Shown in pieces: positions 19,409-22,558 of a stretch of 32,036 nucleotides of DNA; within the stretch, counting starts at the first letter, position 1, and each line of letters starts with the position of its first letter. The stretch is taken from NCBI GenBank assembly GCA_026984675.1, contig JALSRQ010000149.1, forward strand, positions 1-32,036. Direction: 5' to 3'. A program made the translations under genes and the position numbers. The DNA comes from Thermaceae bacterium. GTDB taxonomy: Bacteria > Deinococcota > Deinococci > Deinococcales > Marinithermaceae. The notes beneath the pieces were generated by a model. That model was given only the letters and a program-made list of their open reading frames with translations. It had not been told where the DNA came from and searched no databases.

Positions 19409-20173
19409 GTGCTCCTAGTCGTCGGCGAGGCCCTGATCGAGCTCCAGGCGGAAAGCCCGGGGCCCTTTTCCCCTGACGTCGCCTTCCAGCCCCGCCCCGG
19501 GGGCGACGCCCTGACCGAGGCGCTGGCGGCCCAGGCCGCCGGGGCGCGGGTGCGCCTTCTCACCCGGGTCGGCCGCGACGCCGGTGGGGGCTGGATCAAG
19601 AAGACCCTGCAGCAGTCGGAGCTGGAGACCGCCCTCCAGGAGGACCCCGTCCACGCCACCAGCCTCCGCCTGCGGGGGCCCGACACCCTGATCTACCGGT
19701 CCGCCGACGCCCACCTCGAGGAGGCCGGCGAGGCCTTCTTCGAGGGGGGCACGATGCTCCACCTCACCGCCTGGCCGTTCGGCCTCGACCCCGGCCGCAC
19801 CCACGCGATCAGGATCGTGCGCGAGGGGATCCGCCGGGGCCTCGCCCTCTCGCTCGACCTCAACTACCACCCCCGCGCCTTCCGGGGGGAGTTCCTCGAG
19901 GTCGTCCGCCCCTTCATGCCCTTTTCCTACCTCAAGGTCGACGAGGAGGCCGCCGGCCACCTGGGGCTGAAGCCCGGCGAGCTCTTCCAGCTGGCCGCCA
20001 CCGTGCTCTTTTTCCGCCGAGGTCGGGTCCGCCTGCTCTCCCTCCTGGAGGAGCACGACCACCCCCTCCCCGAGGGGGCTGAGCCCGAGGCGATCTACGG
20101 CCGCTTCCTGGGGCGGGTGGCCCAGGGCGAGGAGCCCGAGGCGGCCCTCAAGAACGTGCTGGCCCCCGCCTAG
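19409..20173 (+). CDS. Degenerate PfkB-family (ribokinase-like) protein
   Basis: 254 aa from GTG 19409, 8 nt after GGGGAGG; GTG 19400 overlaps that site and is less likely. The ribokinase fold is recognisable: VVGEALIEL at the start, RPGGDALTEALAAQAAGARVRLLTRVGRDAGG in the place of the GGxxxNxA motif (from residue 29), LSLDLNYHPRAF and the final helix GRFLGRVAQGEEPEAALKNV. The signature that should read GAGD, with the catalytic Asp, reads GAEP (about 223-226), and the protein is shorter than active kinases (usually about 300). It may have lost kinase activity and kept a binding role, or act on something else. It stands alone. Its 3' end overlaps the PolX gene by 26 nt on the other strand. Confidence 0.75.
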   Translation: MLLVVGEALIELQAESPGPFSPDVAFQPRPGGDALTEALAAQAAGARVRLLTRVGRDAGGGWIKKTLQQSELETALQEDPVHATSLRLRGPDTLIYRSADAHLEEAGEAFFEGGTMLHLTAWPFGLDPGRTHAIRIVREGIRRGLALSLDLNYHPRAFRGEFLEVVRPFMPFSYLKVDEEAAGHLGLKPGELFQLAATVLFFRRGRVRLLSLLEEHDHPLPEGAEPEAIYGRFLGRVAQGEEPEAALKNVLAPA

Positions 20174-21773
20174 CCCGGGCGTGCGCCAGCAGCCGCTCGG
20201 CGTCCCAGGTGTTCACCACCCGCTCGGGACCGACCCCGGCCTTGTTGAGCATCAGGACCCCGAGCTCGACGAACGCCAGCATCTCCCGGCTGTGGGCGTC
20301 GGGGCCGATGGCGAAAAGGAGCCGGTCGCGGAAACGGAGCGCCAGCCGCCAGTCGAGATCGAGCCGGGCGGGGCTCGCGTTCACCTCGACCACCACGCCC
20401 TTCTCGGCCGCCGCCGCCAGCACCGCCTCCCAATCCGCCCGGGCCCCCGGCCGGCGCAGGAGGAGCCGCCCCGAGGGGTGGCCGAGGATCGCCAGGTAGG
20501 GGTTCTCGATCGCCCGTAGGAGCCTTTTCGTCTGCTCCGCCTCGGAGAGGTCGAGGTGGCTGTGGAGGCTCCCGATCACCAGGTCGAAGCCGGCCAGGAC
20601 CTCCTCCGGGTAGTCGAGGCTCCCGTCCTTCAGGATGTCGGATTCGATCCCCTTGAGGACGCGGAAGGGGGCGAGCTCGGCGTTCAGGCGGTCGATCTCG
20701 GCCCACTGGGCCCGGACCCGCTCGATCGAGAGCCCGCCGGCGTAGCCGGCCGAGCGCGAGTGGTCGCTGACCAGCAGGTAGCGGTAGCCCGCCGCCCGCG
20801 CCGCCTCGGCCATCGCCCGGAGCGGCTCGGCGCCGTCGGAGGCGGTGGTGTGGACGTGGAGGAGGCCCCGTAGATCCTCCCGGGAGAGCGGCCGCGCCGG
20901 GGGGAGGAGGCCGACGTGCTCGGGCTCGCGGAAGTAGGGGGGCACGTAGGGCCGGCCCAGGGCGGAAAAGACCGCCTCCTCTGTGGGCGCTTCGGGAAGG
21001 GCCCCGAGGGCCTCGAGGTAGGCCCGGCTCCCGGTCGCCCGCACCAGCACGGTGCCGAAGTTCGCCGCCCCGGCCAGGAAGACCTTGAGGGGCATCCCCT
21101 CGACCCGGCCGTGGAGCACCCCCTCCTCCTCGCGTTCGACGTGCGCCCCGAGCGCCTCCCGAACCGCCTCCGGCGCCCCCCGGGCCACCAGGTCCACCCC
21201 GCCCGCGGTCTCCAGCCCCCGCCTAAGGCTGCCCGCGAGCTCGGCCTCGATCCCGGCGGCCTCCAGGTCGGCGAGGACGATCCCGGCCGCCTCCAGCCCC
21301 ACCGGAAGGAGCACCCGCCGGCTGCTTTTGAGCGCGAAGCGGGCGGCGGCCACCGCCTTCTCGGCGCTCTTTTTCCCGAAGCCGGGAAGGCTTTCGAGCC
21401 GGCCGGTCGCCCCCGCCTCGACCACCGCCTCGAGGCTCGCGATCCCCTCCTCCAAAAGCCGCCGGATCTTCTTGGGCCCGAGCCCCTGAACCGAAAAGAG
21501 CTCCAGCGCCCCCGGGGGCAGGCGCCCCTCGAGCTCCTCGAGGTAGGGGAACTCCCCGCTTTCGTAGATCTCGGCAAGCAGCCGGGCCAGCGAGGGGCCA
21601 ACCCCGCGGACCCCGGCAAACCCCCGCGCGGCCAGGTCCTCGACCGGCTCGGGGGCGGCCTCCAGCGCCCGGGCCGCCCGGCGGTAGGCGAGGACCCGGA
21701 ACTCGCCCTCGCCGAGGACCTCCATCAGGTCGGCGGCCCGCTTTAAGAGGGCGGCGAGCTCCTTCTTGTTCAT
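20148..21773 (-). CDS. polX: DNA polymerase X-like protein with C-terminal PHP domain
   Basis: 541 aa from ATG 21773, overlapping the upstream stop (ATGA). It has an N-terminal 8-kDa-like helical domain with helix-hairpin-helix motifs (GVRGVGPSLARLL, VQGLGPKKIRRLL, LPGFGKKSAEKA), then the nucleotidyltransferase core with GSLRRGLETAGGVDL (181-195). The usual DxD reads G192-V-D194, so the first catalytic Asp is missing, and the later VDLRVV block reads PLKVFLA, so the third is missing too. The PHP domain (about 300-541) looks intact: HVH 306-308, DHS 337-339, Glu377, SLHSH, GHP, NASP and PDAHS, which bind three metals and give 3'-5' exonuclease/phosphoesterase activity in bacterial PolX. Expected role: base-excision or break repair, here perhaps as nuclease only (inference). 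Confidence 0.9.
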   Translation of the reverse strand: MNKKELAALLKRAADLMEVLGEGEFRVLAYRRAARALEAAPEPVEDLAARGFAGVRGVGPSLARLLAEIYESGEFPYLEELEGRLPPGALELFSVQGLGPKKIRRLLEEGIASLEAVVEAGATGRLESLPGFGKKSAEKAVAAARFALKSSRRVLLPVGLEAAGIVLADLEAAGIEAELAGSLRRGLETAGGVDLVARGAPEAVREALGAHVEREEEGVLHGRVEGMPLKVFLAGAANFGTVLVRATGSRAYLEALGALPEAPTEEAVFSALGRPYVPPYFREPEHVGLLPPARPLSREDLRGLLHVHTTASDGAEPLRAMAEAARAAGYRYLLVSDHSRSAGYAGGLSIERVRAQWAEIDRLNAELAPFRVLKGIESDILKDGSLDYPEEVLAGFDLVIGSLHSHLDLSEAEQTKRLLRAIENPYLAILGHPSGRLLLRRPGARADWEAVLAAAAEKGVVVEVNASPARLDLDWRLALRFRDRLLFAIGPDAHSREMLAFVELGVLMLNKAGVGPERVVNTWDAERLLAHARARRGPARS

Positions 21774-22558
21774 AGCGGGTAGGCCTCGGGCCGCCGCCCG
21801 CGAAAGACCACCGCCTCGGTGTACCCGGCCTCCTTTAGCGCCCGCACCGCCTCGGGGAAGCGGTGGCCGACCTCCTCGGGGGCATGGGCGTCGGAGCCGA
21901 GCACCGCCGGGATCCCCAGCTCGCGGGCCCGGACCAAAAGGGCCGGGCTGGGGTAGAGCTCGCCCACCGGCTTGCGCCAGCCGGCGGTGTTGACGTCGAG
22001 GGCGAGGCCGGCGGCGGCGATCGCCTTGAGGGCGTCCTCGGCCAGGTCGAGGTAGCCCTCGGCGGGCACGTGGCCGAACTTCTTGGGCAGGTCGAGGTGG
22101 CCGATGGCGTCGAAGAGCCCGCTCTCGGCGGCCTGCCGGACCAGCTGGAAGTAATCGCGGTAGACCGCCCGCACCTCGCGCCAGGCGAACTCCTCGGCGT
22201 AGAGGGGGTTGTCGAAGCCCCAGGCGCCGATGTAGTGGACCGAGCCGATCACGTAGTCGTAGGGGTAACCGGCCAGCAGCTGGGCCACGAACCGCTCGGT
22301 GCCCGGGTGGTAGTCGGCCTCGAGGCCGATTCCCACGTAGACCTCGGGGTTCGCCTCCCGGAGGCGCTCCAGCGTCGCCAGGTAGAAGGGGAGCGCCCCC
22401 GCCTCCATCCGGGTGTCGGGGTCGAACCAGGGGGGCATCGGGCTGTGGTCGGTGAAGACCAGGCCCTTGAGCCCCCGGCTCCGGGCGGCCTCGAGGTAGG
22501 CCGCCGGCTCCCCCCGGGCGTGCTTGCAAAGCGGGGTGTGGACGTGGCTGTCGTACAC
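21770..22558 (-). CDS. hisK: PHP-family histidinol-phosphatase (HisJ/HisK type)
   Basis: 262 aa from GTG 22558. It starts MYDSHVHTPLCKHA (His5, His7), then FTDHSPMP, GLEADYHPG, SVHYIGAWGFDN, AIGHLDLPKKFG, DVNTAGW and GSDAHAPEEVG, which together supply the metal-binding His, Asp and Glu residues of the PHP trinuclear site. The family removes phosphate from L-histidinol phosphate, the penultimate step of histidine synthesis. It is the first gene of a two-gene operon with the PolX-PHP gene; both carry the same metal-dependent phosphoesterase fold. TATGCT lies 6 nt before the start with no ribosome-binding site. The family assignment is strong; a different phosphoester substrate cannot be excluded. 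Confidence 0.9.
   Translation of the reverse strand: MYDSHVHTPLCKHARGEPAAYLEAARSRGLKGLVFTDHSPMPPWFDPDTRMEAGALPFYLATLERLREANPEVYVGIGLEADYHPGTERFVAQLLAGYPYDYVIGSVHYIGAWGFDNPLYAEEFAWREVRAVYRDYFQLVRQAAESGLFDAIGHLDLPKKFGHVPAEGYLDLAEDALKAIAAAGLALDVNTAGWRKPVGELYPSPALLVRARELGIPAVLGSDAHAPEEVGHRFPEAVRALKEAGYTEAVVFRGRRPEAYPL

Follow-up and report, generated by a model that had tools for sequence, protein, structure and literature searches.

A noncanonical PolX with a degenerate polymerase site and an intact PHP nuclease site accompanies a canonical PolX in a Thermales genome

The window, by which we mean the whole stretch of DNA that was analysed (32,036 nucleotides of contig JALSRQ010000149.1, Thermaceae bacterium), encodes a PolX protein that by its sequence is a noncanonical PolX, a class already published in 2022 and not a new kind of protein. 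We predict, with activity carried over from relatives that are ~40% identical, that it is polymerase-dead and acts as a Mn-dependent PHP nuclease, and we consider this very probable. What is unusual is that this genome has, in addition, a separate PolX whose DNA-copying site is intact.

Noncanonical PolXs were defined by Prostova et al. (2022; PMC9226535) by an altered Asp triad, deletions in the palm and fingers, substitutions in the dNTP site and an intact PHP site, and most belong to a Bacteroidetes/Deinococcus-Thermus cluster in which Meiothermus and Deinococcus are named. In that study, the PolXs of D. radiodurans and D. gobiensis were assayed and showed no polymerisation and a Mn2+-dependent 3'-5' exonuclease; in B. 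subtilis PolX, the one triad change D203A is enough to abolish synthesis (PMC9226535). A 2026 survey found the PHP site to be better preserved than the polymerase site (PMC12926913). Literature searches among openly licensed papers turned up no further study, and no assay, of a noncanonical PolX from Thermales. The window PolX shows each of the features by which PMC9226535 describes the class, namely those of the triad, palm, dNTP site, fingers and PHP site and the place in the cluster.

The gene occupies 20148..21773 on the minus strand, with ATG at 21773, the last codon ending at 20151 and the stop codon at 20148-20150, and its 541 aa product was identified from the open reading frame and translation, the tree presented below and a phmmer match to D. 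radiodurans PolX (2w9m, E = 2.3e-109), the solved structure that it matches best in sequence. An N-terminal 8 kDa (HHH_8) domain and HhH thumb (residues 1-152; 21318..21773, minus strand; PF14716 and PF14520 above cut-off) precede a palm and fingers region (residues 153-279; 20937..21317, minus strand) that alignment lengths and dN/dS indicate to be degenerate, and residues 303-541 form the PHP nuclease domain with its nine metal ligands (20151..20867, minus strand; PF02811 above cut-off and ligand columns). The sequence-only reading had described a PolX that lost polymerase catalytic aspartates and kept its PHP site; the frame and all of the motifs it quoted are where it placed them, with GSLRRGLETAGGVDLV at residues 181-196, PLKVFLA at 228-234, and HVH, DHS, ESD, SLHSH and PDAH all found in the protein.

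Residue equivalences were taken from a MAFFT alignment of the window PolX with those of T. thermophilus (3au2) and D. radiodurans (2w9m). D. radiodurans mutants have been made at E199, E234, H332 and H334 (PMC9226535), and because the alignment reproduces this numbering (triad A197/E199/E234; PHP residues H332/H334), we take its register to be right. T. thermophilus D198, D200 and D243 correspond to G192 (codon 21198..21200), D194 (21192..21194) and K230 (21084..21086; all minus strand) in the window PolX, such that two of the three Asp are lost, the first to Gly192 and the third in the PLKVFLA strand, as had been proposed along with the retention of Asp194. The protein thus has no full acidic triad, since D194 alone is kept of the three acidic palm residues of canonical PolX. 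Triads among the 32 aligned Thermales-type copies, the window counted, were NDR (23), GDK (4), NDK (3), GDR (1) and SDK (1); position 2 is Asp and position 3 Lys or Arg in 32/32, and an acidic residue occurs at position 1 or 3 in none. As the loss is common to all 32 copies, it is not a sequencing error. The substitutions are shared by relatives, and a check of the alignment for a displaced catalytic Asp found none in the palm strands scanned across these copies.

Position 2 was Asp in each of the 36 sampled noncanonical PolXs that have Lys or Arg at position 3, an association that is not significant given too few independent cases. We do not claim a salt bridge between D194 and K230 in place of the metal, as the tree offers no more than 4 independent pairs (median p 0.25) and the published triads DAR and ARE do not fit it.

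Changes extend to the rest of the polymerase site. The palm spans 87 aa versus 96 in T. thermophilus (−9 aa), a length set by our own domain boundaries and not by the length cut-off of PMC9226535, and the fingers 40 aa versus 59 (−19 aa). In the dNTP pocket, the T. thermophilus steric-gate Y258 is replaced by R245 and K263 by R250, while S266, the equivalent of Pol beta N279, is replaced by the hydrophobic L253, with TGS retained. RATGSRAYL takes the place of the YF/HF-TGSK-xN type dNTP motif and 19 aa are absent after it. PF14791 is under its cut-off and the full fingers of canonical PolX are lacking; the Pfam beta-thumb model scores 19.5 bits against the window PolX versus 83.2 against the canonical copy (cut-off 25).

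If D194 and an unrecognised second carboxylate supported weak or specialised polymerisation or nucleotidyl transfer, this would agree with the invariance of D194, and with the synthesis once reported for D. radiodurans PolX, which the authors of PMC9226535 discuss and attribute to a contaminating polymerase. We nevertheless consider such an activity very unlikely, as no universally conserved acidic residue lies at or beside positions 1 and 3, position 3 is Lys or Arg, and the altered pocket (Y258 to R245, S266 to L253) is accompanied by fingers 19 aa shorter; E225, the nearest acidic candidate by position 3, is Gly in 4/32 copies.

The PHP side is intact. All nine ligands (HHHEHHEDH) were located at H306, H308, H338, E377, H404, H432, E463, D492 and H494, confirming that every PHP metal motif is present, and they are identical to the D. 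radiodurans residues and across 32/32 Thermales-type copies; T. thermophilus has Gln (Q342) where the window PolX has H306. In B. subtilis PolX, F440, R469, R474, N498, R503 and K545 are each required for nuclease activity (PMC6616362). Equivalents of R469, R474, N498, R503 and K545 are kept in 32/32 copies, and the DNA-path residues R436, R441, N465, R470 and K511 of the window PolX are kept. The equivalent of F440 is L407, and Leu occupies this position in 24/32 copies. L407 and the one retained Asp of three, D194, count against the protein being a polymerase-dead nuclease, to which we still assign a high probability. Sequence, phylogeny and the assayed D. radiodurans and D. gobiensis enzymes together support the prediction of a repair nuclease, which the sequence-only reading had also reached.

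We searched 111 genomes of the order and found orthologues at 59-85% identity in two families, with a noncanonical copy retained in 33 genomes of the two. The window polX is under purifying selection, with a pairwise dN/dS of ~0.2 overall against two same-genus relatives; values were lowest in the HhH part (0.14-0.15), intermediate in PHP (0.18-0.21) and highest in the palm and fingers (0.32-0.33). The high palm and fingers value and the presence of a canonical copy on contig C15 might be expected if the window gene were a decaying remnant, redundant with that copy, but an open full-length frame, PHP ligands that are the same in 32/32 copies, the low overall dN/dS and retention in 33 genomes of two families make this almost certainly wrong, and decay is largely refuted by conservation.

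In a tree of 113 proteins, one branch (support 98) parts noncanonical from canonical PolX. The window PolX groups with its own genus (99) inside a Deinococcota noncanonical group (100) that includes D. radiodurans PolX. With the palm and fingers columns removed, the Deinococcota noncanonical group stays (97) and the larger noncanonical set needs four changes; these PolX trees were built quickly, with SH-aLRT as the sole measure of support. An AF2 model of the window PolX built from a 59-sequence alignment reached a pLDDT of 96.1, versus 45.6 for single-sequence AF2. Foldseek with the former ranked 2w9m first by E-value, and the highest TM-score shown was 0.79, to T. thermophilus 3au6. Large rmsd to the other PolX entries suggests a different domain arrangement.

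Compared with the PolXs of D. radiodurans and D. gobiensis (PMC9226535), the window PolX has the same domain order, replacement of two to three triad residues, a short palm, an altered dNTP site, the PHP ligands HHHEHHEDH and a place in the same tree group. It differs in its triad (GDK versus AEE in D. radiodurans and ARE in D. gobiensis) and in its fingers (40 aa versus 58 in D. radiodurans), and, unlike in those cases, the genome adds a canonical PolX. M. silvanus PolX has been modelled, and Meiothermus PolX was described with an altered triad and a deleted fingers segment (PMC9226535). Noncanonical copies sampled from family f4, which probably include Meiothermus (genus names are our own assignment), are 60-65% identical to the window PolX and have fingers of 40-41 aa, and their triads are mostly NDR or NDK rather than GDK. 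The window PolX shares domain order, HhH core and PHP domain with the canonical enzymes of T. thermophilus (3au2, 3auo; ~36-37% identity in the structural match) and B. subtilis. These enzymes fill gaps and possess DDD and full fingers, whereas GDK and short fingers occur here, in agreement with the proposed distinction from the active Thermus and Bacillus PolX; their counterpart in this genome is the C15 copy and not the window gene. PolX-like proteins of Actinobacteria (PMC12926913) resemble the window PolX in that the PHP part persisted beyond the polymerase part, but those proteins have lost the polymerase domain itself, while the window PolX keeps a folded but degenerate one.

Immediately upstream lies a HisJ-family histidinol phosphatase gene (21770..22558, minus strand; NCBIfam TIGR01856, 191 bits, cut-off 90.2), whose stop codon overlaps the polX start by 4 nt. 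A same-strand hisJ is upstream of noncanonical polX in 29/30 Thermales-type loci with enough sequence, within ~130 nt in 27. Stand-alone PHP neighbours of altered PolXs have been noted in Deinococci, with the suggestion of an extra nuclease activity (PMC9226535). The window hisJ is the sole hisJ over cut-off in its genome, which also has hisD, and in genera g1 and g3 no match to a HAD-type histidinol phosphatase exceeded the cut-off. By these sequence matches, from a search that covered HisJ- and HAD-type phosphatases, a histidine-pathway phosphatase HisJ is a simpler reading of the upstream PHP gene than an aid to the nuclease, and the neighbour is probably not part of window PolX function. 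HisJ and PolX have the PHP fold in common, which gives no evident functional reason for the conserved adjacency of the two genes.

Noncanonical PolX is associated with non-homologous end joining (NHEJ) genes across phyla, an association that is frequent and not defining (PMC9226535), and the window PolX could by this token serve as a nuclease in Ku/LigD end joining, as suggested in other phyla. Such a role would agree with the LigD-type polymerase domain that passes its cut-off in 8/14 genomes of the window's family (f1), own genome included. However, Ku (PF02735) was detected in 0/14 f1 genomes and, across the order, in 6/111 genomes, each from family f5, by a search that found the B. subtilis control. 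The genome itself is 93% complete, such that the absence of Ku there alone is weak evidence, but it holds across f1. Because Ku was not found, we judge a role in end joining to be very unlikely here. The LigD-type polymerase domain of the own genome lies at G000:C81:1450-2184, in a family without detectable Ku.

The canonical PolX of the genome (contig C15, L004:4254-5981) has DDD and full fingers. Both PolX forms occur in 10/14 f1 genomes; three of the other four are 64-76% complete, and the fourth (G009, 99% complete) has the noncanonical form only. In f4, the noncanonical form was found in 21 genomes, 8 of which also have the canonical one, and 28 genomes have the canonical form only. One genus, probably Thermus since the 3au2 sequence has its closest relative there, accounts for 27 of these 28. 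Family f5 genomes have canonical or noncanonical PolX and, unlike f1 and f4, none with both among the matches listed.

Independent horizontal gains have been proposed for most genomes with two PolXs (PMC9226535). The f1 canonical copies form one clade in the tree, and grouping the noncanonical f1 copies in one clade is likewise compatible with the data (p-AU 0.176); an ancestral pair with later losses would therefore fit f1 at least as well, which makes horizontal gain unneeded as the source of the f1 pair.

The canonical copies differ on the nuclease side. At PHP ligand 1, f1 and f4 canonical copies have Gln in 24/25 and Lys in 1/25, with His in 0/25, while f5 canonical copies and every noncanonical copy have His; the Gln variant is listed for T. 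thermophilus (PMC9226535). Gln at this position is independent of the present-day partner, as the Thermus-type genus without the noncanonical form has it too. At the position of window Asn465, f1 and f4 canonical copies have mostly Asp. The most extreme case is the canonical PolX of one genome (G013, 98% complete; L063:183-1919), an open 578-aa frame in which DDD is kept and 7/9 PHP ligands are lost (K F R E R R E G K at the nine positions), while its noncanonical PolX (L035) keeps HHHEHHEDH. Against relatives, dN of this canonical copy was 0.14-0.16 in the core and 0.30-0.32 in PHP, with dS saturated. Other canonical pairs also had lower dN in the core than in PHP, and noncanonical pairs lower dN in PHP than in the core. 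By these sequence comparisons, the two copies look reciprocally constrained. Together they hint, tentatively and with doubt outweighing confidence, that an old Thermales pair split the work, with the window-type form nuclease-only and the canonical form drifting towards polymerase-only, the extreme case being a single genome.

In the window PolX, DNA binding by the HhH core is presumably retained, but the core would no longer hold two catalytic metals and a dNTP, and polymerisation would therefore not occur. The PHP domain would trim or clean 3' ends with Mn2+ as a 3'-5' exonuclease, possibly also as an AP-endonuclease and 3'-phosphatase, and the protein probably works beside the separate canonical PolX that does the gap filling, a cooperation that, like the cellular substrate, we infer. 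If the division of work is true, polymerisation and 3'-end cleaning by PolX are supplied by two proteins in these bacteria. The window adds another Thermales genus to the published noncanonical class, and the wider pattern of PolX pairs matters more. Genomes in which a dead and an apparently polymerase-proficient PolX occur together with no detectable Ku offer a natural test of the dead form without Ku-dependent end joining, and the apparent reciprocal losses in the G013 pair show a route to testing whether the nuclease and polymerase of PolX need to be in one protein.
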